Shown piece after piece: positions 2,279 through 63,578 of a DNA stretch of 64,000 nt (positions are counted from its first letter, which is position 1; every line of letters starts with the position of its first letter). The notes beneath the pieces were generated by a model that did not search any database, had not been told where the DNA came from, and saw nothing but the letters and a program-made list of their open reading frames with translations. The DNA comes from Onthophagus taurus (lineage: Eukaryota; Arthropoda; Insecta; Coleoptera; Scarabaeidae): the NCBI RefSeq assembly GCF_036711975.1, contig NC_091976.1, positions 10,106,001-10,170,000 on the forward strand, written 5' to 3'. The translations under genes were made by a program, and so were the position numbers.

Positions 2279-2439
2279 TGCAAACAACGTGTGCTTCGTT
2301 TCCGTTGATCGCGCGCGACTGAACGCATCATAGAAATTAACAACTATGCGTCAATCGCAAACAGTTTAACGCACTGCGATCGCCGCTTGCGTCAGACGCA
2401 CCATAGGAATCCCACCTTATAACTGACAATGTTTATATA

Positions 2440-3308
2440 CTAAACCATACATAAAGAACAATCCTTTCTTGCCGATGGTGGACCATCAATATGCGTTTCC
2501 CAATGAGGCAAATTATAATGTTCAAAACAGGGCAGCTTGCTTTGTAATCGCTCATCGTTTCTATACTTCAACGGTAATTTAAACCAAACCGCCGCCAAAT
2601 CTAATGGCTTTACTTTATTGATATAATAATCGATTGGTAAATAACATAATTCGTAGTTTTTAATATTCGCAAAAGATAAATCAGATTCGTATCTTTCCAT
2701 AATATCCCACACTTTATTAATTATAAAAGTTGAAAGTCCCAATCTGGTAACTAACCGCCAAAGACGTTCCATCTTGAACTGCTCTACCGCTACTACCCGT
2801 CTGCCTTTCTCAATTCGTTTACATATAGTTATAGATGTCTGAATACGTATGAAAATAAATAAAAAACATTCGATAAAGAGCACATACTTGGTCTCTTTTT
2901 ATGATAGGGACACATCGGCGCACCAACCTCCAATTTGCATTCATTTTCCGGCAATTCTTTTACCGGTATTGTTAAAATTCTTCTTAAAAATGTAGCTTTC
3001 TCACGTCCTTTTACGTACGCTACTTTTGTCGAACGACACAAATAACAAACGATCTCATCGAAACGAGACGCAGGAACAAACCCGTCGTTCCAATCAATAC
3101 AATGATGACGACTCATTAACCAATTCGCCGTATTGCGAAATTTGGTAGATAGTGAAGAAAAGCTTCGACTAGGTTGAAACACGTAATGACTTATACAATG
3201 ATTACTGTCGTAAGAAGCCAGTTCCTTTGGGATAAATTCTTCATCGTTTATCGTGAAACCTTGAATGTCCAAAATAATAAAATCCCTTTGAAAAACCATA
3301 ATATCCAT
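2440..3308 (-). CDS. Conserved Polinton-associated protein, possible nuclease, two exons
   Basis: The first exon (from 3308) encodes a domain opening with FIILDIQGF, followed by HHCIDWNDGF, a VKGREK motif and a Cys/His C-terminal part ending near CPYHKKRP. A GTATGT donor lies at about 2891. The second exon (to 2440) encodes a 110-residue tail ending HIDGPPSARKDCSLC. Two in-phase acceptors are possible, at roughly 2815-2822. Remnants of the same family occur at 36770-37163 and, nearly identical, at 59280-60067. The spaced acidic residue after a hydrophobic strand suggests an RNase H-like exonuclease fold, but I cannot confirm catalytic residues, so function is unassigned. It follows the major capsid gene by 77 bp. 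Confidence 0.6.
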
Positions 3309-3385: not shown

Positions 3386-4352
3386 CTATATTAATTGCTT
3401 AACCATTTTCGTAAGAGGCGAATACACAAATGCTCTGTCATGCAGAATTAATGCGTAAGCTGTCGTACCCTCCGGAATTGGATTTTTCGTTGAATACTCG
3501 ATTTTTATTTCTACTCCGCTTTTATGTATTGCTTCCTGTTGATACGTGCAATCGATTCCAATTAACGGCGCGTAAGTTTTAAATTCTTCCGGTGAAAACA
3601 AAGGTTCGCTTTCTTGATAGTAGTATGCTTGTTGAAATCTTGAATACATATCATACAAAATCGCATAGTGATTGTTATCAAAATCCACATTCAAATTATC
3701 GTACGGAAAACGTTCTCCATTCAAGAAAACGGTTACGTTCGTTAAGTTTATATTATCAAATAATGCCATGTTTCCTTTAAATATACCCTTTCGATTTGTT
3801 TGAAATCCGATGATTATAAATTTAGGCGTTTCCAATTGTGGAGCAGTTTTGACGGCCCAAGATTGCTTCGTAGTTTGAGGTAATTGAGGGTACTCGTGTA
3901 TTTCCCAGGATCGAAAAGGAACGTGAATGTCTACGTTTCTTTCTGATAGTTTTGTTAATGCCAACTGTTCGTGTAATCCCACCGCCACGTGAGGAACTCT
4001 CCATATAATTTTATTAATGATCAATTTCAATTTTTCAACAATTTTCAACATGTACTCCGTTAATAAGATATCGAATATCGCTAAACATAAATGCAACGGG
4101 ATTGTTAACCAATTGCCCCGTTGCGCTGGCATCTTTTGTTATACTTCCGTCCGCGGCTAACTTACGAACGCTACCCTCGACGTATAGATAACTCTCGCTC
4201 GGTAAAGTATAATTATCTATTTCCGGTATTGAAATTCTAATTTCGTCATTGTTATCGAACGTGGTCGATCCAAACGGTTGATGCGAATGGAATTCATAAC
4301 TTACGATAGAGTGATCTGTTTTTATCTTATCCGTTACTTTTAAAATGTCCAT
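3386..4352 (-). pseudogene. Double-jelly-roll major capsid protein (hexon-like), internally deleted
   Basis: The N-terminal 105 codons (4352-4038) correspond to the start of the Polinton B capsid gene at 48340. The C-terminal part (from about 4060 to 3386) corresponds to its second half, beginning at the shared NKIIWKVPHV-like strand. Against copy B about 120 codons are missing at roughly 4045-4060, and the join is out of frame, so no full capsid protein can be made from this copy. The family builds the pseudo-hexameric capsomers of Polinton and adenovirus-type virions. The start codon overlaps the stop of the preceding small ORF (TAATG), a tight arrangement shared with copy B. Confidence 0.75.
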
Positions 4353-4543
4353 TACTTTAACACTTCGTATCCTAACTGAACTAAATACCTTCGATTGACT
4401 GGTGATAATCGATGAATGGATCGTCTTCTACTGCCGCTACGTTGACTGATGACGCGCGCTTTATAGTTTTCTCCATTAAACAATTTTCTCGCTCTGTCTC
4501 TTCTTGACCACCGCATTCTTTTGTTTTGATATAACACTGTCAT
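4352..4543 (-). CDS. Conserved small Polinton ORF between penton and capsid genes
   Basis: The first ATG at 4543 gives about 63 residues, rich in Arg, ending LSPVNRRYLVQLGYEVLK. A 44-aa ORF at the same place in Polinton B (48482-48348) ends LTPQNKQFLESLGLQLIK. The shared pattern is L[ST]PxN[RK]xx[LF]xxLG. The ORF overlaps the preceding penton-like gene and its stop overlaps the capsid ATG. Conservation of position and of C-terminal pattern in two divergent elements argues that it is a real gene. I know no function; a small capsid-associated or cement role is a guess. Confidence 0.55.
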   Translation of the reverse strand: MTVLYQNKRMRWSRRDRARKLFNGENYKARVISQRSGSRRRSIHRLSPVNRRYLVQLGYEVLK

Positions 4544-5328: not shown

Positions 5329-5709
5329 CTAATAGATCCTTTTATTACTTAGAAACTTCAGACACAACTGTCCGCAATTTTGATCTATTTCTCTTTGATA
5401 TCGACAGTAATTATACTTTACTTGACCACCCCTACCGTCTGACAGCAAATATTGTTCAATTTCTAATGGCGGTCTTAAATCACCGTAACTGTCGAAATAG
5501 TATATGTCCTTGTCGTCTTTCTTATAGGCGACCCAATGCGTCCCTCGTCCTTTCAAGTTGTCCAAGTTAACAATATCTCTTTCCTTCTTTTTAATCTTAC
5601 TCGGGAGATTGTCTCTCATAAATATACCCCGGAAATGTGGAATTTTTAGTACTTTCGCAAACTTTTCCAACTCGACGTTAGTTAACGCACGACGAGGTAT
5701 TCGAACTAG
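5329..5709 (-). CDS. Adenain-like maturation cysteine protease (peptidase C5), in the -1 frame after pX
   Basis: The core has the His motif GRGTHWVAYK, the acidic FDSYGDL segment and the catalytic Cys region NCGQLCLKFL, in the order and spacing of adenovirus-type proteases, at about 113-130 residues. In adenovirus this enzyme cleaves virion precursors. No AUG is available at the 5' end: the frame opens just after a stop at the end of the pX gene, and the conserved motif ALTNVE precedes any Met. The frame is exactly -1 relative to pX, and a canonical A AAA AAC heptamer lies at the overlap. I infer expression as a pX-protease fusion; a spliced start is the alternative. Confidence 0.8.
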   Translation of the reverse strand, partial: LVRIPRRALTNVELEKFAKVLKIPHFRGIFMRDNLPSKIKKKERDIVNLDNLKGRGTHWVAYKKDDKDIYYFDSYGDLRPPLEIEQYLLSDGRGGQVKYNYCRYQREIDQNCGQLCLKFLSNKRIY

Positions 5710-6548
5710 TTTTTTGAACTAGTGGTTATACCGCAACCTTTCTTATATGGTTTTATATAAAATCCGCTACCTACGGCCTTTGCTTCCATAGCCTTGTTAT
5801 GTCTTCGTTCTTCATCTAATTGCTCTCTAGCTGTTTTCGCGTTGTTTATAGTTCTTGCAATAGCGGCAGCACCACCGCCGATACTACCTAGGGCACCTAA
5901 AGCTGCGAACAGGGGAATTAAAGGTAAAAATCCTCCCGTTTTCGGAATTCGAATAACTCGACCTCTAGGTCCGGAAATTCTTTTTCTTATCTTTTTCAAA
6001 GCTCCGTACGCCGCTTTAACGTTTGTCAACAAATTCTTAGCACCTGATCTCGATATTGCGTTGCGAGCGAATCGAAGTGCATCTACAAAAGATATAGCTC
6101 CACCACGCTTTACACGCGTTCGGACTTTTTTTAAAGGTCGTCGACCCGTACGATTTCTTTTTCTACCTACGCCCATACCGACCGCTACTTTTGCTTTCAT
6201 TAAGGCGGCAACTGCGGACGATGCCACTTTTTCTCCAAGAGTAGACTCTTTATTTCGTATTCGTTCTTTCGCTGCTTTATATAATGCTCTGTCTGCGTCG
6301 TGTCTAAATTTTAAATTTGAACTGACCGTATATGCTATATCGTGTTTCTTACACGCTTCGTCTAATGGATTCACGCCTCGATCTCCTCTCGATAATCTCT
6401 TTTCCAACTTGGTACCCGGTCCACAAAAATTATATCCTGGCAAATGAAGTTCTATCGGAAGTTTATCTATCAACTTGTTAAAAAATCCTCGACCAATTCG
6501 TTTGCCTGTCAAACGATAACTGTTACGATTAGGTTCTAACAAATTCAT
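5706..6548 (-). CDS. PLA2-like (parvovirus VP1-type) plus pX-like virion protein, fused
   Basis: This is a 280-aa basic protein from the ATG at 6548. Residues 31-70 carry a phospholipase A2-like core: LPGYNFCGPGT is the calcium-loop pattern and DEACKKHDIAY holds the His-Asp pair. A very basic linker follows, then a pX-like module with a hydrophobic GGFLPLIPLFAALGALGS segment and the closing motif GSGFYIKPYKKGCG. PLA2 domains of this type breach endosomal membranes in parvoviruses; a similar role here is inference. In Polinton B the two modules are separate genes on opposite strands (49571-50014 and 50951-51295), so A1 shows a fusion or B a split. The frame is intact. Confidence 0.75.
   Translation of the reverse strand: MNLLEPNRNSYRLTGKRIGRGFFNKLIDKLPIELHLPGYNFCGPGTKLEKRLSRGDRGVNPLDEACKKHDIAYTVSSNLKFRHDADRALYKAAKERIRNKESTLGEKVASSAVAALMKAKVAVGMGVGRKRNRTGRRPLKKVRTRVKRGGAISFVDALRFARNAISRSGAKNLLTNVKAAYGALKKIRKRISGPRGRVIRIPKTGGFLPLIPLFAALGALGSIGGGAAAIARTINNAKTAREQLDEERRHNKAMEAKAVGSGFYIKPYKKGCGITTSSKN
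5709..5715 (-). promoter_or_regulatory. Predicted -1 programmed ribosomal frameshift site (A AAA AAC)
   Basis: In the pX reading frame the last codons are TCA AAA AAC TAG, so the slippery heptamer has the required X XXY YYZ phase and the stop follows directly. Slipping back one base continues in the adenain frame without a stop. A hairpin with eight-base arms and one mismatch can form about 12 bases downstream (5665-5696); this spacer is longer than the usual 5-9. The B element has T TTT TTA at the equivalent place. Confidence 0.6.
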
Positions 6549-8113: not shown

Positions 8114-8496
8114 GCAATACATAAGGTTGCTGGTGGGGGGAGTAATATTTCACATCATTACCGAATATATCTATTATACATGTTCTAACACGTCATTATA
8201 TCGTGAGACGTCAGACAAAACGCATGACAAATTTATTAAGAAGCTCTTAAAAAATATCTCGCAGGTGGATCATGACTCATCTACTACTAACAAGTTAGTT
8301 GACCTCCTCCTCAAACCTGTCCTCCCAAAAAATTTGCCGATTCAAGAACCTCCTCGCATATTCTTAAATACCCGTACACCTTTACATAATAAAATAAAAA
8401 ATATCTCGCAGGTAAGTTATGACTCACTTATTTGTATACCTACATGTCTCAAAACCGTATACCTTTGTGTATAATAATAAATTAAGAGATATATCG
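8114..8496. other. Polinton A1 subterminal region without a supported gene
   Basis: It contains two imperfect copies of a segment beginning AAAATATCTCGCAGGT (near 8255 and 8397) and degenerate versions of the terminal CCTCC-rich repeat near 8300-8360. A 115-codon plus-strand ORF here (8127-8474) has no start context or family resemblance and I do not call it. Confidence 0.4.
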
Positions 8497-8850
8497 AAAA
8501 CATTAACAGTTCATTGAGAAGCGTCGAAGGATAAACATAGTAATTGTTTTCATCTAGGTAAACAGGTTACATATAAAGATAAATTTTTAATAACATAACC
8601 TAAATAAAGATACATTTTTAATAAAGATAAATTTTTAATAATTTCGTCAAAATAACATGACCTTCTCAAGTTAATTGACCTCCTCCTCTCTTCATCGAAT
8701 CTCCTCCGACCCTCAGAAGAATCGCCGATTCAAGAACCTCCTCTCCTCATCGAACCTCCTCTGACCCCCAAAAATTTTGCCGATTCAAGAATCTCCTCCT
8801 AGAACGCAGGTTCGAGGAGGAGGTTCTTGAATCGGCGAATCTATACTACT
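8497..8850 (-). repeat. Terminal region of Polinton A1 with long palindrome
   Basis: The last 354 bp are almost identical, inverted, to 58931-59280 of copy A2. They contain a palindrome at 8780-8835 with arms of about 21 bases (GATTCAAGAACCTCCTC core) and two further partial copies of the arm. Such a terminal hairpin could serve as a transposase or integrase recognition site or a replication end structure; that role is inference. Confidence 0.75.
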
Positions 8851-45231: not shown

Positions 45232-48200
45232 CTATATTTGATTAATCATACCAGTTAAAGGAACATATTTGAAAACACGATCGTGTAAGATTAAACAGTA
45301 GAGGGAAGTAGCATTAGGTATCTCTTCACTCGTTTCAAATTCAATGCGAATATCAACGGTTCCCACATTTAAAATATCATTTTGCCGTGAACAATCAATT
45401 ACAATAATCGGTGTATGTGCTAAAAATGTATCTCTGTTAAACATTGGTTCTGCAAGTTCTCGATCGTAATAGGTCTTTGCGAAATTACAATACATTTCAT
45501 ATAAAACTGCAATTTGACCTGTCTTAAAATTTAAATTTAAAGCTTCCTAGGGATATTTCTCACTATTTAAAAACACTTTCATATTTGTTAAATTACAGTG
45601 GTCAAATTGTGATGCAGAACGTAACGGATTATCTTTTCTATTGATTTGAAACCCTAATATAAAGTATCTGGGCTTTTATAATTGAGTAGATGTTTTAATT
45701 GTCCATGTGTGTTGTCTATTTTTTGGTAATGATGGGTATTCATGTAAATCAAATGATCTAAATCCCATGTCTAATTCAATTCCTTGTTCAATGTACAGGG
45801 TGGGCAAATTTGGGTGTTATTATAGGCTATCTCAGAAACTATAAGAGATACAAAAAAAGTAGGTGCCATATCCCGGTCTCTTTTTCCGAGACTAATCCAA
45901 TCCCGTAAAGACCAAATCTCCATCTTCTTTTGTTTTAAGTTATAGCCAAAAAGTCAAATTTTAGTGATTTCAACAAATGCTCATATTTCATTTATTTTTG
46001 AAATTAGAGAAATGGGGTTAATACATTCTTAAGACACTTTTTTGAGTAGAATATACTGCCGTTGAAAAATTTGTAACATAGCTGATAATTTTTGAGATAT
46101 AACATAAAGTTGTATTTTTTTAAATACAAACTATACTTTATTATGATGTTACTGAAAAGAGCATATTTTTAGCTTTCCAATGATGTATCGCACGCATGAT
46201 GTTTATGCGGAAAATAAGCGTTATTTTTCAATTTTTAAAATATTAAAGATTAAAATTAAAATTTTTACTTATAGTAGGCAAGGAAAATGCTAAATACTAC
46301 TTAGTTACTATAGCAACGTGAGTTTACTTGTCATTTCATTTGTAGCGTCGCTACAAACATTCACCGTCCAAAAATTACAAAATTTTTAGTAACCCTCTTT
46401 TCATTTTCTTTGTTTCCGTGGGAAATTTTATTAAAAAAATAAATGTTATTTTTAGTTTTTCAACCAGTCTTGTCTGATTGTAACTACGTGTAAGACGTAT
46501 ATTAAAATTGTGTTCTAAAAAGAATATTTTTTTTTAATTTTTAAAAATATAGCAAGTGGCTATTTGAATATAATCATTCTATTAAAACAAACTATATCAT
46601 TCTTGAATTTTGCGAAACGAGTTTCCCGTTTAAGAAGTTCCGCATTATCTTTAAATAAAACGATAAAATTAAATGTAGAATATATTGAATTCCGCTTTGA
46701 AGATGATACATAAGTCTTCATATCCCCATTAAAACGGTGTTTCAATGGAAAGTCCGCTCCCAGTTTATGATCCCTAATTTTCCTCTATCTCACCCAATTT
46801 CAAAAGAAAAGATTGCTGATATCAAAAAACTTCTACATCTTATGTTTGGGGGAAACTGGGAAAATACTACCGAAGATTTCATTCATTGGTACCGAACTGT
46901 TCTAATCTTACAACCAGTAAGTTGAGTAGAAGAAGAGGACAGTTTATGACTGTTTAGTTCCTGAAGTTGTCCATATTTAATTATTCATTAATTAATACAT
47001 TTCTTGTATTTTTAATAAACAAACTTTACTTGCTAATCATTTTTTATTGGTGAACAAAGTCAGGGATAAGATGCTGAGAAATTTACATTAACTATTCAAA
47101 GTTTTTATTCGTTGGTACAAAACCAACTTATCCTGAATAATGGTACAAAACCAACTTTATTCTGTCATATTCGTGCAAAACCATATATTATAGCCTCTAC
47201 GTAGTGTTTACTGTCCACACCCGCCTACTATAATCAAAATTTTGAATATTAGCGCTTACTATTTTCGAATTAACGCTTATTTTCTGCAAATACACCATAC
47301 ATGCGATACATCATTGGAAAGCTAAAAATATGCTCTTTTCTTTAACATCATAATCAAGTATAGTTTGTATTTAAAAAAACACAACTTTGTGTAGTATCTC
47401 AAAAATCATCAAGTATATTTAAAACTTTTCAACCGCAGTATATTCCACTTAAAAAAGTGTCTTAAGAACGTATCAACCCCATTCCTATAATTTGAAAAAT
47501 AAACGAAATATGAGCATTTTTTGAAATCACGAAAATTTGACTTTTTGGCTATAACTTAAAAACAAAAGAAGATAGAGGTTAGATGTTTGCGGTATTGAAT
47601 TAGTCTCGAAAAAAGAGACCGGGACATGGCACCTACTTTTTTCGTATCTCTTATAGTTTCTGAGATAGCCTATAATAACATCCAAATTTGCCCACCCTGT
47701 ACTCTAAAAGTTTTAAACGTTCAACATCGGCTACAGAAACATGAGGAACTTTCCATACTATTTTATTAATAGTAATCATCACATTAGGTAAAAGACTTTC
47801 GATAACATTCTTGTCTGAATTACTGCGTACTAAAACTAATTCTTGACGGAGATTTATCAAAATTTTATTATAATCTTCTGCGAACCCAAGAAAATATTTC
47901 AAGGGAACACAAAAGTCAAAATCTCCTGTATTTTCATTTACTTTAATATTTGGATATTCGAAACCTGCGTTAGAGGCATGATAGTATTCCGATCTTGTTA
48001 ATGAGCAAAGATTTTTTAATGTGCTAGCTATTCCTGGATTTCTTACTCTGTCAATTACGTTCCCTCCACATTCAAATCGTACTTCACTAAACATATGAGC
48101 GATCGGATTTGCTGACAATTTTGAATCTTTATCAACGGTTCCGTCATCTTTCAATAGTTTCCCTTGTACGTAAATAAAAGATTGACTTGGTAACGTGTAA

Positions 48201-48340
48201 ACGTCCTGATGTTGAATTGCAATACGAATTTCATCGCTATTGTTAAAAGAATTTGATAAGTATGGTAAATGATTATGATACTGAATCCGTACGAGTGAAT
48301 TATCAAATTGTACTTTATCAGAGACGTTTAAGATACTCAT
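45232..48340 (-). pseudogene. Major capsid protein of Polinton B, split by a fold-back element and two stops
   Basis: The N-terminal 215 codons (48340 to about 47700) are intact and begin MSILNVSDKVQFDNS, with YTLPSQSFIYVQGKLL and the NKIVWKVPHVSV strand. A TA-flanked element (45796-47699) interrupts the gene. The rest (45795-45232) keeps the frame pattern of A1 but has stops near 45675 and 45550, ending CLILHDRVFKYVPLTGM, compared with YALILHDRAFVYSPLTKM in A1. It provides the region deleted in A1 and so shows the usual double-jelly-roll length of roughly 400 residues. Confidence 0.75.
45796..47699. mobile_element. Fold-back element, TA target, CAGGGTGGGC termini, 1.9 kb
   Basis: Both ends carry CAGGGTGGGCAAATTTGG(G/A)TGT with inverted arms of roughly 570 bp, flanked by TA (45794-45795, 47700-47701). 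TA target and terminal sequence suggest a non-autonomous Tc1/mariner-type element. The unique centre includes a plus-strand ORF at 46737-46925 with PISKEKIADIKKLLHLM, possibly a captured gene fragment, and a copy of the 10.8-kb dispersed repeat. Confidence 0.85.
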
Positions 48341-48347
48341 ATTGTTA

Positions 48348-48482
48348 TTATTTTATTAATTGTAAACCTAATGATTCAAGAAATTGTTTGTTTTGAGGTG
48401 TTAACTGTTTCACAGTGTGAAGAGAACTAAAAGTATTGGTTTGATTTTGTGGGTTTATATTACCTTTTACCTTAAGAACCAT
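48348..48482 (-). CDS. Conserved small Polinton B ORF (44 aa)
   Basis: It starts at the ATG at 48482, overlapping the end of the penton gene in another frame, and ends at TAA 48348, eight bases before the capsid ATG. The C-terminal LTPQNKQFLESLGLQLIK matches the pattern of the A1 small ORF (LSPVNRRYLVQLGYEVLK) at the same place. Confidence 0.55.
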   Translation of the reverse strand: MVLKVKGNINPQNQTNTFSSLHTVKQLTPQNKQFLESLGLQLIK

Positions 48483-49220: not shown

Positions 49221-49612
49221 CTATAATGCGTCTGATGATAAGAAATTTAAACATAAATGACCACAATTACTTGTGTTATAGGTTTGATATTGATGGTGAT
49301 TATATTTAATAATTACATTATTTCCAGCACTCTTGAAATAATTGACAATTTCTTTACTTGGTTTTAAATTACCAAAACTATCGAAATAAGTAATTATATT
49401 TCCCTTTTTAATATAGGCTGTCCAATGAGTACCAGGTCCTTTCACACTATCCAAGTTAATAATACCTCTTTCATTATTATTAATACGCACAGGTAATTTA
49501 TCTTGCATGAATTTCCCTCTAAACTCTGGTATCCCTAATATTTTCACATAACGCATCAAGTCAACGTTTGTTAGCGCTTTCTGCTGTTGTATGGTTTTTC
49601 TTGGCGTGTCTT
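49221..49612 (-). CDS. Adenain-like protease of Polinton B, in the -1 frame after pX
   Basis: The core has GPGTHWTAYIKK (His), YFDSFGNL (acidic residue) and NCGHLCLNFLSS (Cys). As in A1 the frame is -1 to the pX gene and stays open from the slippery site (T TTT TTA, 49619-49613) through QQQKALTNVDLMRYVK into the protease. An ATG at about 49535 exists, but it lies after the conserved ALTNVD segment, so it probably is not the true start. It is the best-preserved gene of the B capsid block. Confidence 0.8.
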
Positions 49613-50014
49613 TAAAAAAACACCTAATCCTTTTTTATATGGTTTTAAATACAGACCTTTACCTAAAGCTATTGATTCCATCGTTTGATTATGTCTTTGA
49701 CTTTCCTTGAGTGCCGCTTGTGCTTGCTTCGTTTTATTGACAGCACTTATAACGGAAGCAGTTCCACCTGCTGGAGCTCCTAATGCACTTAAACCAGCAA
49801 AAATTGGAATGAGCGGAAGTATACCACCGCTTTTTGGAATTGTAATAACTCTAGAACGAGGTTTCTTTTTGACAATACCTTTTACGGCACGTAAAGCTAA
49901 CTTTGCAGCAGATTTCAAATCATTAGTGCTTGACTCTTTTAATTTTATTTTAGCATTTTTAACGGCTCTATTAAAAGAAATCACTTTTCCACTTGCTCCT
50001 TTCTTCATGGTCAT
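49571..50014 (-). CDS. pX-like virion protein of Polinton B
   Basis: 147 residues starting near 50014 (ATG at 50008 after MT, depending on start). A basic N-terminal half is followed by a hydrophobic GGILPLIPIFAGLSALG segment and the closing GKGLYLKPYKKGLG motif. It matches the C-terminal module of the A1 PLA2/pX protein (GGFLPLIPLFAALGALGS; GSGFYIKPYKKGCG). No PLA2 domain is present here; that module is the separate plus-strand gene at 50951. The frame is intact. Confidence 0.7.
   Translation of the reverse strand: MTMKKGASGKVISFNRAVKNAKIKLKESSTNDLKSAAKLALRAVKGIVKKKPRSRVITIPKSGGILPLIPIFAGLSALGAPAGGTASVISAVNKTKQAQAALKESQRHNQTMESIALGKGLYLKPYKKGLGVFLKTRQEKPYNSRKR
49613..49619 (-). promoter_or_regulatory. 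Predicted -1 programmed frameshift site (T TTT TTA)
   Basis: Codons GTT TTT TTA in the pX frame present the heptamer in the correct X XXY YYZ phase, 13 codons before the pX stop. After a -1 slip the frame is open into adenain. I see no strong hairpin within ten bases downstream. Confidence 0.55.
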
Positions 50015-50231
50015 CCAATCACTTCAACGGTCAACAGAAACGGTCAACAGAAATATTATATGTTTAAATTCAGACTTATAAAGGAGTCAGTTATACCATA
50101 AATATGAAAGTGATAAAACAACCTTACACATTAAATATTGATGATATTGATAATCACTTCAATGGTCAACAGACAAATGAACATTATATATTCAAAATCA
50201 AACTTATATAATAGTTAGTTATACAATAAAC
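50015..50231. promoter_or_regulatory. Divergent control region with a 128-bp tandem duplication
   Basis: This stretch separates the minus-strand virion block from the plus-strand ATPase block. A unit beginning AATCACTTCAA(C/T)GGTCAACAG and ending with the ATPase start (ATGAAAGTGATAAAACAACC) occurs at about 50025-50120 and again at about 50152-50250, so the promoter and first codons of the ATPase are duplicated. The upstream ATG copy leads only into a short frame. Confidence 0.6.
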
Positions 50232-50927
50232 ATGAAAGTGATAAAACAACCTTACACATTAAATGTTGATGATGTAACAATGCAATTTAATAATAATCAA
50301 TCACCTCAAAACAGAAAGCATAGTTATTTATTTCCAAATAATCTACGTTGCATTATATCCGGACCTTCTAACTCTGGTAAAACAAATCTGATAATTAGCT
50401 TATTACAGGATCCTAATGGACTATCATTTAAAAATGTGTATGTGTATTCAAAGTCATTGTATCAAAACAAATATGAATATTTGAGAAAATTGCTGCAGCC
50501 TATAAAAGGTTAAGGATATTATGAGTATAGCAGTAGTGATGACATAATGCATCCTTCTAAAGCGAATGAACATTCGGTTTTTATATTTGATGATGTAGCA
50601 TGCGATAAACAATCAATTATTCGTGATTATTTTTGTATGGGACGACATAAGGCAATAGATAGTTTTTATTTATGTCAGAGTTACACACATATTCCAAAGC
50701 ATTTAATACGTGATAATGCAAACTTTTTAATACTTTTCAAACAAGATGATCTAAATCTAAAACATATTTATAATGATCATGTAACAACCGATATGAAATT
50801 CAATGTCTTTAAGAAAATGTGTTCAATGTGTTGGAAAGATAGATTTGGATTTTTTGTAATCAGTAAGGAGGACGATATGAACAATGGTAGATATCGTAAT
50901 GGGTTTCATTACTATATAAAACTGTGA
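50232..50927 (+). pseudogene. Packaging ATPase (FtsK/HerA-type) of Polinton B with one nonsense codon
   Basis: The reading frame is continuous from the ATG at 50232 to 50927 except for TAA at 50511-50513, directly after QPIKG. Walker A is GPSNSGKTN near residue 45 and Walker B is VFIFDDVAC; later motifs (GRHKAID, LCQSYTHIPK, LILFKQDD) match the intact A2 copy at 62874. The enzyme powers genome packaging into capsids. Only this stop blocks the gene; readthrough cannot be excluded. Confidence 0.8.
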
Positions 50928-50950
50928 TTGTGTATGTTTCTATATCAGTC

Positions 50951-51295
50951 ATGTTAGTGATACGAACAGGTGGAGAGCTGCATTTACCCGGCTATCAGTT
51001 CTGTGGACCCGGGACAAATCTCATGAAACGCTTAGCACGTGGAGATCCTGGTATTAATGACCTTGATAGAGCATGTAAACGTCACGATTTAGCCTATACA
51101 CAATACACAGATTTACACAATCGACATAAAGCAGATAAAGTATTAGCTGAAGAAGCATGGAAAAGAGTATTGGCGAAAGATTCATCGATTGGTGAAAAAG
51201 CTAACGCATGGTTTGTTACTAATGCGATGAAAATAAAACGAAAGTTAGGTTTCGGTTTGAAGAATCCAAAAAAGTATCGGTGTTACAACCGATAA
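50951..51295 (+). CDS. PLA2-like (parvovirus VP1-type) protein of Polinton B, stand-alone
   Basis: 114 residues from the ATG at 50951. The calcium-loop motif LPGYQFCGPGT and the His-Asp motif DRACKRHDLAYTQY are conserved, followed by a basic helical tail. It corresponds to the N-terminal module of the A1 fusion at 6548-5706, but here it follows the ATPase gene on the opposite strand from pX. A phospholipase role at entry is inferred from the parvovirus family. Confidence 0.75.
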   Translation: MLVIRTGGELHLPGYQFCGPGTNLMKRLARGDPGINDLDRACKRHDLAYTQYTDLHNRHKADKVLAEEAWKRVLAKDSSIGEKANAWFVTNAMKIKRKLGFGLKNPKKYRCYNR

Positions 51296-58930: not shown

Positions 58931-59280
58931 AGTAGTATAGATTCGCCGATTCAAGAACCTCCTCCTCGAACCTGCGTTCTAGGAGGAGGTTCTTGAATCG
59001 GCAAATTTTTTGGGGGTCAGAGGAGGTTCGATGAGGAGAGGAGGTTCTTGAATCGGCGATTCTTTTGAGGGTCGGAGGAGATTCGATGAAGAGAGGAGGT
59101 CAATTAACTTGAGAAGGTCATGTTATTTTGACGAAATTATTAAAAATTTATCTTTATTAAAAATGTATCTTTATTTAGGTTATGTTATTAAAAATTTATC
59201 TTTATATGTAACCTGTTTACCTAGATGAAAACAATTACTATGTTTATCCTTCGACGCTTCTCAATGAACTGTTAATGTTT
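58931..59280 (+). repeat. Terminal region of Polinton A2 with perfect palindrome
   Basis: The palindrome at 58946-59001 has 21-base perfect arms around a 14-base loop, with two more partial arm copies downstream, as in A1. Confidence 0.8.
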
Positions 59281-60067
59281 TGGAACTGGCTTCTTACGAC
59301 AGTAATCATTGTATAAGTCATTACGTGTTTCAACCTAGTCGAAGCTTTTCTTCACTATCTACCAAATTTCGCAATACGGCGAATTGGTTAATGAGTCGTC
59401 ATCATTGTATTGATTGGAACGACGGGTTTGTTCCTGCGTCTCGTTTCGATGAGATCGTTTGTTATTTGTGTCGTTCGACAAAAGTAGCGTACGTAAAAGG
59501 ACGTGAGAAAGCTACATTTTTAAGAAGAATTTTAACAATACCGGTAAAAGAATTGCCGGAAAATGAATGCAAATTGGAGGTTGGTGCGCCGATGTGTCCC
59601 TATCATAAAAAGAGACCAAGTATGTGCTCCTTATCGAATGTTTTTTATTTATTTTCATACGTATTCAGACATCTATAACTATATGTAAACGAATTGAGAA
59701 AGGCAGACGGGTAGTAGCGGTAGAGCAGTTCAAGATGGAACGTCTTTGGCGGTTAGTTACCAGATTGGGACTTTCAACTTTTATAATTAATAAAGTGTGG
59801 GATATTATGGAAAGATACGAATCTGATTTATCTTTTGCGAATATTAAAAACTACGAATTATGTTATTTACCAATCGATTATTATATCAATAAAGTAAAGC
59901 CATTAGATTTGGCGGCGGTTTGGTTTAAATTACCGTTGAAGTATAGAAACGATGAGCGATTACAAAGCAAGCTGCCCTGTTTTGAACATTATAATTTACC
60001 TCATTGGGAAACGCATATTGATGGTCCTCCATCGGCAAGAAAGGATTGTTCTTTATGTCAGGTTTAG
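59280..60067 (+). pseudogene. Nuclease-like Polinton A protein, 5' truncated by deletion
   Basis: It is near-identical to 3225-2440 of A1: the exon with HHCIDWNDGF and VKGREK, the same GTATGT donor (about 59619) and the exon ending HIDGPPSARKDCSLC. The first 28 or so codons, including DIQGF, are lost at the deletion junction. The frame is otherwise preserved. Confidence 0.7.
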
Positions 60068-60547
60068 TATATAAACATTGTCAGTTATAGATTGTAAATT
60101 AATAATAATAATAATAAAAGATTGTAAAAAGTGTAAAAAGTTGTTTTAATTTAAAAGAAAAAATAGTTAATCTAAATGAATACATGGTATGTATACATTG
60201 GGTTGGGTTGGTATGACTTGGGTTGTACATTGAAAAAGTATTAAATTGGAAGAAAAAAGGAAGAAAGAAAGGGGAAAAAAGGAAGAAAAAAAAAAAAAAA
60301 AAAAAAAAGAAAAGGAAAAGGGAAAAGGATTGTTGATTGAAACTCCTCCTATGCTCCTCCCATGCTCCTCCTCAGACTCCTCCCAAAGTGGAGATGGAAG
60401 AGTGGGGATGGGAGTGGGGGAAATCTAAAATTCCCCCCCCCCCCCCCCCAGTTGCCAGGAAAGTTGAGCCAGAAAAAAAGTACCCCCACTCTAACTCCGC
60501 CCATTCCCCACTCCTCCCCCTTGTCACGCCCCCCTTCATTACTCTAC
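60068..60547 (+). other. Low-complexity spacer before the leader promoter
   Basis: It holds an A/G-only tract (about 60249-60330), an 18-19 base C run at about 60433-60451 and C-rich repeats. Overlapping ORFs here are by-products of composition. The homopolymers may be unreliable in assembly. Confidence 0.5.
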
Positions 60548-60583
60548 TATAAGAAGGCACCTCCCAGCCTTTGAAAGTCACTT
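60548..60583 (+). promoter_or_regulatory. TATA promoter of the spliced leader
   Basis: TATAAG at 60548-60553 and TCACTT at 60578-60583 are about 31 bases apart, fitting a TATA plus initiator core promoter. The first leader exon would be about 60580-60608. Confidence 0.55.
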
Positions 60584-61329
60584 AAGTGTTTGTGTTCTTC
60601 AGTTTTTGGTAAGTACAACCTTCTTTATTATCATGTTTATATAACGTTTTCTCTCCATCACTACAGCTCTTTCCACAACTTTCTCTTTTTTGGTGAGTAA
60701 AACTATATTTGTTTTGCATGTTTATATAATATTTAAAATTGTTTTTTCCACTCCTAGACATCCTTGCTCAATAAGCTTTCTCTTTTTTTGCTGTGTTTTA
60801 TTTGGTAAGTAACCTTTTTTATTTTGCTTATATAATATGTAAAATATTCTTGTTTTGTTTCATCATAACAGTTCTTTCTACTTTGTTTTTGTGAGTACAA
60901 CTTGTTTATTTGTTTGTTATGTTAAATTGTTATTTTTATTTTTTCAATTCCTACAGGACCTTACTACTGATCACTTCCATTTTGTGTTTGATCAATTCGA
61001 TCAGTTTTGATAACTTCGTTATCTCGGCGACTTTTTTCTGGTAAGCCTTATAGCCTTCTTTTCCTTTGCATATATTGTTGCTAATCTGTTTTTTTTTTTT
61101 TCATTCCTATAGCTCCTTCTATTTTAAATCTTAATTTTTGTTGGTAAGCATAACTTTATTATTCGAACGTTTGTATCATAATATCTACAATAATTTTTTA
61201 TCATTCACATCCTATCATTCAGCACCCACTGCAATTAGATTTTAACGTTCTTTTCATCAAGCGATGTAAGTATACATGATTTTTTATTAAAATAAAATAA
61301 ATTAATGTATGAATCTTTTTTTTATCAAG
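60580..61329 (+). other. Predicted multipartite spliced 5' leader: seven small GT-AG introns
   Basis: Predicted introns: 60609-60666, 60693-60757, 60805-60871, 60891-60956, 61041-61112, 61144-61222, 61266-61329. Donors are GTAAGT, GTGAGT, GTAAGT, GTGAGT, GTAAGC, GTAAGC, GTAAGT, and acceptors are pyrimidine-rich endings such as CTACAG, CTCCTAG and CCTATAG. Predicted leader exons of 29, 26, 47, 19, 84, 31 and 43 bases contain no ATG, while most introns do. The last acceptor directly precedes the ATG at 61330. It recalls the adenovirus tripartite leader, but the pattern alone does not prove use. Confidence 0.65.
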
Positions 61330-62310
61330 ATGTCTCAAGACGGTTTTAGTCAAATTGATTTAACTGCTCCCGGTTTCGCCAGCAGCCAGGAGTCATTCCT
61401 GTTAAACAGTTTTGACATAAACCTGTTGAACATATCGACTGTTGAGAAGGCGCTGGATCCAAACGTGCAACCTAATGAGCAGCCGATGGATCCTAACGTA
61501 AAATCTAATGCGCAGCAAGATCCGTCGCTTCTGAACGTCGCAGGTTCCGCGAATGTCGACGATAAAAATGTGAAACGCCTTTCACTTCGTCGGAATTCGG
61601 GGAACCGTGAACATTGGAAGAAGGCTGCAGGTGTGTGGGTACCGTCAGAAAAGTATAGAGAGGAAAGAAGGGAGGCACGTGCTCGTTCGCGACGTAGCCA
61701 ACGCAAGTATGTGTCAGTTGAACAAGCGACCCCGTCGAAGGTTGAAATGACACAGTCGAAAGTGGTTACCGAGAACGAGTCCGATAAATCCGACGACTCT
61801 CTTGCTTTAATGGCGGTATCACAACACTGTAGTAACCGGAAGTATCTTAAAGCTACTAAGGCTTCTTTTTCTTCTTCTAAAGCTTCATTGGCTCCCGTTA
61901 CTAACTCAAATATCCCTAACACCGAAATTCCTTCGTTAAGCCCGAAAGTACACATCTTAAGGGTTGACAATATTCCTGCTAATATTCCTGCTACTTCAGA
62001 TATTTCCGATGTGTCTGCCAGCCTTTTTTCAAACGCAATGTGTACAGCAGTAGAAACAACCAAAGGGGAGATTTTGGCCGAAATTAATAATTTGTATCAA
62101 AATTTTTATAAAGACCTTCATGCAAAGGTTCTTCAATTGCAGACCTCTTTGAGAGAACTTTCACAGTTTAGAGAAGGGCTGACATCGAGCTGTAACAACC
62201 CTTTAACAATATCGCTCGACATCACCATAGCATCATTAACCTGTGAAATTAAAAAGGCTGAATGTATTTTATCTAGTTTCACTACTAATAGCGTAAACTT
62301 CCCTTCCTAG
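61330..62310 (+). CDS. Polinton A2 protein, 326 aa, unknown
   Basis: The start is the ATG at 61330, immediately after a splice acceptor; an upstream ATG at 61309 lies in the intron. The N-terminal third is acidic and Asn/Pro-rich with two DPNV(Q/K) repeats. A strongly basic middle (KYREERREARARSRRSQRKY) is followed by a Ser-rich linker and a C-terminal helical region with heptads (YKDLHAKVLQLQTSLRELS). It could be a nucleic-acid-binding or scaffold-type protein. I do not recognise a family. The long leader suggests strong or late expression. Confidence 0.6.
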   Translation: MSQDGFSQIDLTAPGFASSQESFLLNSFDINLLNISTVEKALDPNVQPNEQPMDPNVKSNAQQDPSLLNVAGSANVDDKNVKRLSLRRNSGNREHWKKAAGVWVPSEKYREERREARARSRRSQRKYVSVEQATPSKVEMTQSKVVTENESDKSDDSLALMAVSQHCSNRKYLKATKASFSSSKASLAPVTNSNIPNTEIPSLSPKVHILRVDNIPANIPATSDISDVSASLFSNAMCTAVETTKGEILAEINNLYQNFYKDLHAKVLQLQTSLRELSQFREGLTSSCNNPLTISLDITIASLTCEIKKAECILSSFTTNSVNFPS

Positions 62311-62317
62311 CTTAAAG

Positions 62318-62672
62318 ATGACTAATAATATGGATAATATGAGAGTTAATCATATGCTAAGACTATGTGAAGTGGAGCAGAAAGTTGCCTCGTTGGAGGT
62401 AAAATTAGATGCTATATTTAAGTTGGTACGTTATACTTATAATACTTTTTTCCATGTCATTAATTTTATCTTCTCAGCTGCAGAGTGTGTCAGAATCGGC
62501 TGTGGTGAGGGGTGAAGTGCATGTGCAAAACATGCACATTAACCGTTGCACATGTGCTAGTTCACCGACTCCGGCACCGACTCCGGCAACGACTCCGGCA
62601 ACTACTCCGGCACCAGCAGCACCACCACCTCCTTACCAAAGATATCAAGAAGAGGAGGAGGAGGAGTGGTAA
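62318..62672 (+). CDS. Polinton A2 protein with coiled coil and Thr-Pro repeat, one intron
   Basis: Exon 1 (62318-62425) encodes a short coiled coil (LCEVEQKVASLEVKLDAIF). A 52-bp intron (62426-62477, GTACGT donor, TTCTCAG acceptor) joins in phase to exon 2 (62478-62672), with a Cys pair, a repeat of TPAP/TPAT units, a Pro-rich part and the acidic end EEEEEEW. A trimerising coil plus extended repeat would fit a fibre-like spike, but this is inference. It starts eight bases after the stop of the preceding ORF. Confidence 0.5.
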
Positions 62673-62696
62673 CTACTCCTTCTCTTCTTTTATTTA

Positions 62697-62770
62697 TTAA
62701 GTTAATATTAAGTTAATATTAAGTTAATTATTAAGTTAATTATTAAGTTAATTATTAAGTTAATTATTAT
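62697..62770 (+). repeat. TTAAGTTAATATTAAG-type tandem repeat
   Basis: Six or so units of 13 bases (TTATTAAGTTAA variants) lie between the repeat protein and the ATPase. Confidence 0.75.
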
Positions 62771-62873
62771 TTTATACTTCCAATATACTCAATATATCTA
62801 TATAAAGTTACTTTTGCTATATTTTCATTCAGTCTTATCCTGTTAATGTTATAATTGATTTAGTACGAGAATC

Positions 62874-63578
62874 ATGATCGACGAGAAATTAAAATGTCTA
62901 CCGCAACTTCTAACACTGCCTATAGTAAATTTTAGTAATGGTTCGGTCGAAGAACACTTTACAAGACACAGCAATTTATTTGGTGGAAAATGTAAGCGAG
63001 GTTTAATTGTAGGACCCTCTGGTGTCGGAAAAACAAATGCTATGTTATCGCTTTTACTTGCACGTAATGGCCTCCGCTTCCTAAACTTATACTTATGCTC
63101 CAATTCGTTATACCAAAATAAGTACGATTTTTTAAGACGTTTAATTGAACCTATAAAAGATTGCGGTTACTATGAATTTTCTAATATAGACGAGTTCATT
63201 CGACCGGAAGATGCGAAAGAATATTCGGTAGTCGTATTTGACGATGTTTCCTGTACAGGTCAAAATGTCATTAAGGAATTTTTTTCGTATGGTCGACATA
63301 AAAACATTGATTGTTTTCTAATTTGTCAAAGTTATAGTGCAATTCCAAAACAATTAGTTCGCGATAATTGTAACTTTTTGGTGTTATTTAAACAAGACTT
63401 AACAAATTTAAAACACGTATTTGAAGATCACATAATGAGCGATATGGAGTTTCATCGGCTAAAGGAAATTAGCGATGCTTGTTGGGAGAATAGACACGGC
63501 ATCCTAGTTATTGATTTAGATTGTAGTATATCTAAGGGACGTTACCGTAAGGGTTTTGATAAATTCATTGAAGTTTAA
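62874..63578 (+). CDS. Packaging ATPase (FtsK/HerA-type) of Polinton A2, intact
   Basis: 234 residues from the ATG at 62874. Walker A is GPSGVGKTN near residue 45, Walker B is SVVVFDDVSC near residue 118, and the downstream motifs GRHKNID, LICQSYSAIPKQLV and FLVLFKQD follow. Length and motifs match the A32-like/FtsK ATPases that pump genomes into Polinton, adintovirus and NCLDV capsids. The B copy (50232) is the same family but has a stop. It is followed after 51 bp by the DUF8207-like gene, the same order as in B except that B has the PLA2-like gene in between. Confidence 0.88.
   Translation: MIDEKLKCLPQLLTLPIVNFSNGSVEEHFTRHSNLFGGKCKRGLIVGPSGVGKTNAMLSLLLARNGLRFLNLYLCSNSLYQNKYDFLRRLIEPIKDCGYYEFSNIDEFIRPEDAKEYSVVVFDDVSCTGQNVIKEFFSYGRHKNIDCFLICQSYSAIPKQLVRDNCNFLVLFKQDLTNLKHVFEDHIMSDMEFHRLKEISDACWENRHGILVIDLDCSISKGRYRKGFDKFIEV

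Follow-up and report, generated by a model that had tools for sequence, protein, structure and literature searches.

How does a Polinton make its protease when the protease reading frame has no AUG ahead of its conserved core? The question is raised by the junction of two genes in Polinton A1, one of two Polintons with a pX/protease gene pair, both on the minus strand, within the window analysed here (a single 64,000-nt stretch of Onthophagus taurus DNA). The A1 pX gene (5706–6548, −), an ATG to TAG open reading frame for a PLA2-like virion protein (PF08398, E 1e-12), ends in its own phase with GGT ATA ACC ACT AGT TCA AAA AAC TAG. An earlier note on this DNA had read this end as a canonical slippery heptamer, and A AAA AAC is indeed located in exact pX phase at 5715–5709 (−), with the pX stop codon TAG (5706–5708, −) immediately 3′ of it. 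The adenain-like protease frame (5329–5718, −) is exactly −1 to pX. Closed upstream by a TAG at 5719–5721 (−), it opens at 5718, 3 nt upstream of the heptamer, overlaps pX by 13 nt and ends at its own stop at 5329 (−). As the same note had stated, this frame opens only at the overlap and has no AUG before the ALTN core, its first Met lying 23 residues past the start of the core. From the pX start to the junction, the pX frame contains three further ATGs and one other frame two, a total of five to which the protease frame contributes none. An AUG overlapping or adjoining the pX stop would be the mark of stop-coupled reinitiation, and A1 has none. From the sequence of this and related junctions, we consider it probable (roughly 0.8) that the pX/protease junction is a site of −1 programmed ribosomal frameshifting that yields pX together with a minority pX-protease fusion.

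The two elements differ in their state and layout. In keeping with Polintons/Mavericks (Eupolintoviridae), a double jelly-roll capsid protein is recognised at 3389–4138 (PF21738, E 1.5e-67) and at 47654–48352 (E 2.9e-36). The A1 copy is defective, since its major capsid gene (3386–4427, −) is broken into two frames and misses an internal portion that the second element retains (about residues 98–186 of the fragment found there); its junction is nonetheless intact. In the second Polinton, of subfamily C, the pX tail gene (49571–50023, −) is an open frame without a PLA2 match, the junction reads ...GGT GTT TTT TTA AAG..., the heptamer T TTT TTA lies in pX phase at 49613–49619 (−), and the protease frame (49221–49634, −) is again −1 to pX. 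An A32-like packaging ATPase (PF04665, 50514–50924) and an rve integrase (PF00665, 52843–53415) are found nearby, and a PLA2-like domain is encoded beside this element by a separate open reading frame (50900–51295, +), on the strand opposite to the pX tail gene. Possible parts of a third Polinton at 58931–63578 (+) comprise an A32-like ATPase (PF04665) and inverted 98–99% matches to 2418–3225 and 8494–8850.

Searching the genome of the host, 290.8 Mb in 33 contigs, for the protease gave at least 150 scored matches from 265 candidates; the true number is higher, because only 150 of the 265 were scored. We took 88 junction stretches for diversity rather than as a set of all copies and, with the two of the window, grouped them into 12 subfamilies. 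Protease identities between subfamilies are 38–77%, except for C and D (93%), and the comparison with J is short because the J protease is broken. In 11 of the 12 subfamilies, AAAAAAC (nine) or TTTTTTA (two) occurs in pX phase within the overlap, with the protease in the −1 frame in each of these 11. Read in pX phase, the junctions are TCA AAA AAC TAG in A, GCA (or ACA) AAA AAC TAA in B, TCA AAA AAC TGA in the one copy of J, AGA AAA AAC TAA in I, CAA AAA AAC TTG TAG in F1, CAA AAA AAC followed by TTG or TTT and TAA in F2, CAA AAA AAC TTA TAG in F3 and CAA AAA AAC TTT TAA in G; in H, TCA AAA AAC has its stop 15 nt on, and in C and D, GTT TTT TTA has it 39 or 45 nt on. The pX stop thus varies (TAG, TAA or TGA, 0 to 45 nt past the heptamer) while the heptamer is constant. 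AAAAAAC and TTTTTTA share the property of slippage, and the presence of two different heptamers with equivalent slippage at the same place supports the frameshift reading. On mammalian ribosomes, A_AAA_AAC is placed among the shiftiest heptamers by PMC5009743.

Representatives of 10 of the 12 subfamilies have no AUG before the protease core, the exceptions being E and J. This count, together with the heptamer and the −1 phase in 11 of the 12, gives comparative support to the predicted joining of pX to an adenain-like protease by a −1 frameshift, as the earlier note proposed. In J, a single decayed copy, an AUG in the protease frame lies 27 nt upstream of the heptamer, inside pX; one B copy (L030) has an AUG just downstream of the heptamer. 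Subfamily E (two copies, L046 and L068, the second also fetched as L091) lacks the heptamer, and its protease-frame ATG overlaps the pX TGA (CA ATG A), making it the sole one among the 12 representatives with an AUG overlapping or next to the pX stop; E has possibly switched naturally to a different means of producing the protease. The existence of relatives that carry their own AUG had been named in advance as evidence against a frameshift, and E is such a relative, whereas the heptamer and phase persist in the 11 others; because E has its own AUG, the frameshift device appears common rather than universal.

Individual copies retain the junction. With the flanks fixed and six bases left free, all 64 A junctions and all 61 B junctions read AAAAAA, a count biased to young copies. 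A local heptamer census covered 89 loci (L009–L096 minus the short L060, plus the two of the window), of which L077 and L079 were dropped for low score, leaving 87 scored. Outside E, the heptamer is retained in 79 of 84 rows, or 77 of 82 distinct copies, L074 and L075 being L025 and L045 fetched again. The five exceptions are L015, in which the flank is deleted so that the row is unscored and the heptamer is still present; L071 and L087, in which the junction is altered or deleted; L072, with one A fewer; and L089, which reads AAGAAAC. This census replaced an automatic one of whole-gene phase, in which many decayed copies showed another phase; we set the latter aside because it was distorted by indels elsewhere in decayed copies and by too narrow a window for H. 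The A1 heptamer is flanked by two direct copies of ACTAGTTC (5701–5730, −), and the loss of the heptamer in L087 was judged by eye to be a deletion between these copies. Five A copies (L009, L010, L013, L023 and L024) have a longer pX tail in which the unit KPYKKGCG is repeated; A1 (5706–5800) has one unit.

The heptamers are concentrated at the junction. In 11 representatives (without J), AAAAAAC or TTTTTTA occupies 10 of 153 pX-phase positions in the overlaps vs 2 of 2304 in pX bodies. Codon permutation of these representatives gave a mean of 0.18 subfamilies with a match (maximum 3 in 2000 trials) and synonymous-codon resampling a mean of 1.54 (maximum 7 in 2000), against 10 observed. Since F1–F3 and G are close to one another, as are C and D, the statistics were redone with eight lineages (A, B, J, C, E, F2, H and I): 7 of the 8 have the heptamer, and 5000 trials of each kind reached at most 2 by codon permutation and 5 by synonymous resampling. 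The two-heptamer set was picked after seeing which heptamers occur, which makes the null figures optimistic; with this post hoc choice and lineages linked by inheritance, they are guides rather than exact probabilities. A broad set (X XXY YYZ, with Y = A or T and Z not G) gives a weaker contrast and is less discriminating, at 12 of 153 overlap positions vs 21 of 2304 in pX bodies and in 10 of 11 subfamilies, for which 2000 trials gave means of 1.6 by permutation (maximum 6) and 5.2 by synonymous resampling (maximum 10). Codon choice points in the same direction as the heptamer statistics: AAT is the commoner Asn codon in these pX frames (74 vs 47 AAC), yet AAC is used at each Lys-Asn junction of the nine subfamilies.

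Whereas the nucleotide evidence comes from one species, Onthophagus taurus, the cross-species evidence is at the level of protein, because neither the protease nor a pX alignment retrieved any relatives when run against viral contigs. Among the best 120 of 961 pX homologues listed, two of them from Onthophagus taurus, 106 end in Lys-Asn followed by 0–2 residues, against an expectation of 0.015 per protein based on the remaining sequence. In these 106, the Asn is followed directly by the stop in 28 and by C, F, Y or S in 66 of the other 78, residues that together make up 11.8% of the rest of those proteins. Because stop, C, F, Y and most S codons start with T, the pattern fits A AAA AAC U and a −1 reading of K-K-L rather than a need of the pX protein, and suggests that AAA AAC codons probably underlie the foreign Lys-Asn ends. 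The 14 homologues of the 120 without such an end include one clearly cut short (P0203) and two that are maybe so (P0092, P0099); in a group that counts the Tribolium protein P0190 among its members, the ends are ...KYR, ...RYR or the like, and this group may rely on a different way.

On the protease side, 22 of 83 foreign proteins reach far enough upstream, and in 13 of these (P0011 and P0021 doubtfully) KK precedes L, P, H, Q or R, which is what a −1 reading of A AAA AAC yields. The called starts of the 83 lie at or before the core in 57 (some MKLP...), close to it in 7 and after it in 19; with many called from an AUG near the core, AUG starts are possible in other species. A search for longer proteins with a protease part returned five, one of them from the ant Trachymyrmex zeteki, and each has pX sequence ahead of the protease. 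These natural fusions indicate that joining the two is tolerated, though they are predicted proteins, in which an annotated model could contain an intron.

Other ways of making the protease have to account for the same junctions. Ribosomes might restart at or near the protease after the pX stop, at an AUG or else at a non-AUG codon, the heptamer being incidental. E, with its AUG overlapping the pX TGA and no heptamer, has the layout that such reinitiation calls for, and in many foreign protease proteins the called start is an AUG just ahead of the core. Reinitiation is nevertheless unlikely given the 10 of 12 representatives without an AUG before the core and the J AUG, which lies inside pX upstream of the heptamer and not at the stop; moreover, it leaves the exact phase of the heptamer unexplained while the distance to the stop ranges over 0 to 45 nt. 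Slippage might instead be transcriptional, the A or T run giving an mRNA one base longer or shorter. This deserves mention, as the sites are mostly runs of six to seven A or seven T and two copies (L015 and L061) have the protease naturally in frame with pX through indels at or near the run. The runs are short, however, and both the X XXY YYZ phase and the terminal C of A AAA AAC are kept when slippage by the polymerase needs neither, which makes this explanation very unlikely.

Splicing within pX could supply the protease with an upstream AUG or bring it into the pX frame, and it would likewise not require a phased heptamer. AG dinucleotides do occur near the junction in several subfamilies; they lie at differing places, in a context that is mostly A-rich and not pyrimidine-rich, with no common acceptor discernible by eye, and we regard splicing as highly improbable. 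Finally, the heptamer could simply be the codons of a Lys-Asn end required by the pX protein itself, an end very common among pX homologues. C and D, however, have Phe-Leu at the heptamer, and resampling that preserves the amino acids never gave more than the 5 of 8 lineages noted above, vs 7 observed, so that a need of the pX protein is scarcely credible as the cause. The −1 programmed frameshift is the reading that we retain.

The assignment of the protease itself relies on a relative. The A1 protease of the window has no Pfam match; catalytic residues were assessed by eye. The predicted model of P0206, one of the natural fusions, has a confident C-terminal domain (blocks at pLDDT 92–98 from residue 271, the last at 86; overall mean 73), and its six best PDB matches are adenovirus protease chains (E 4.5e-7 to 4e-5; 1nln, 4pie and 1avp best). 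In agreement, a profile search retrieved 1avp (E 6.1e-5), and it connected the N-terminal part with capsid chains of AAV VP1 (E 3.4e-4). By way of this relative, the A1 protease probably has the adenain fold.

A −1 programmed frameshift site would be expected to have a stimulatory hairpin or pseudoknot a short way downstream, and the earlier note had placed a candidate hairpin downstream of the A1 heptamer. It can be drawn (5664–5703, −), but its folding energy is at the level of chance (z −0.68 over 40 nt). We folded hairpins in three windows (40–90 nt downstream) and ran a crude home-made pseudoknot scan, with 30 shuffles each, and found no stimulatory structure common to the subfamilies by either approach, a result that counts against the frameshift reading. 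Folding was clearly stronger than in shuffled sequence for H at 40 nt (z −4.9; a hairpin 9 nt past the heptamer) and for B at 90 nt (z −3.8), and modestly so for F3 (z −2.0), whereas A, C, D, F1, F2, G and I were not distinguished from shuffles; the pseudoknot scan was positive for F3 alone. In plant viruses, a stop codon directly 3′ of the heptamer can aid the shift through ribosome pausing, and by analogy the stop directly after the heptamer may assist frameshifting here. Otherwise the shift rate may just be low, which could be enough for an enzyme.

Based on the above data, we propose the following mechanism. Most ribosomes would end pX at the stop located at or shortly past the heptamer. 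A minority, with their two tRNAs paired to the heptamer (A AAA AAC or T TTT TTA), would slip back by one base and read on into the protease, so that the pX-protease fusion is made in a low fixed share, as in retroviral gag-pro. From the heptamer, its phase, the usual absence of an AUG and their conservation over divergent subfamilies, all of which are observed, we infer slippage and its rate. The pX part would presumably bring the fusion into the particle, and the pX tail might help or activate the protease in cis. It is the tail rather than the PLA2 domain that may be the relevant partner of the protease, because PLA2 is a separate open reading frame on the other strand near the C element while the tail stays joined to the protease, even in C and D, where the pX frame before the junction has only about 150 codons. 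In adenovirus, the cofactor peptide of the protease is the tail of pVI. A partner role for the pX tail would match, by analogy only, this peptide of 11 residues (PDB 1nln title). A broader rule is conceivable, and we offer it tentatively: physical coupling of the pX tail to the maturation protease could be general and old in insect Polintons, by frameshift in most beetle lineages, as a single fused protein in others (including an ant) and loosened in a few to a protease that starts at an AUG, with the pX tail acting as a built-in cofactor and packaging tag.

Retroviral gag-pro expression of the MMTV type relies on −1 slippage at A AAA AAC, near the stop of the first gene, to fuse the protease with a virion protein. 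The Polinton junction would work alike, with the same heptamer close to the upstream stop; unlike the retroviral case, it belongs to a dsDNA transposon or virus, with an adenain-type cysteine protease, PLA2/pX as partner and no conserved pseudoknot found. Adenain of adenoviruses is a separate gene, and its fold is probably shared with the Polinton protease (through the relative P0206), which in contrast would come as a fusion. The Spodoptera insect Maverick has the same two gene kinds as here, CAP (PLA2) and PRO, described in PMC5803895 as separate open reading frames, the frameshift mentioned there concerning errantiviruses; the protease is given as its own gene there as well as in PMC8097293 and PMC8363768. 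PMC12567637 does not deal with pX-protease frameshifting. Such retrovirus-like coupling had been expected to be new in the earlier note. With pX as the partner, we did not find such frameshifting in our searches of open-access full texts; the sole related statement found, in a 2024 preprint, is one sentence on potential Hexon-Adenain ('Hexain') frameshift fusions of adintoviruses (PMC11071296). Adenain is there, as here, a predicted −1 fusion to a virion protein in Polinton relatives, but the partner is the major capsid protein, whereas pX takes that place in the present case, which is tested comparatively. A frameshift-fused adenain is consequently not a wholly new idea.

If the frameshift reading is true, a dsDNA virus-like lineage has come to dose a virion protease as retroviruses do, and the fusion suggests a route of the protease into the particle. 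It would also explain why gene callers frequently truncate these Polinton proteases: annotation of PRO from the first AUG drops the N-terminal core in such elements.
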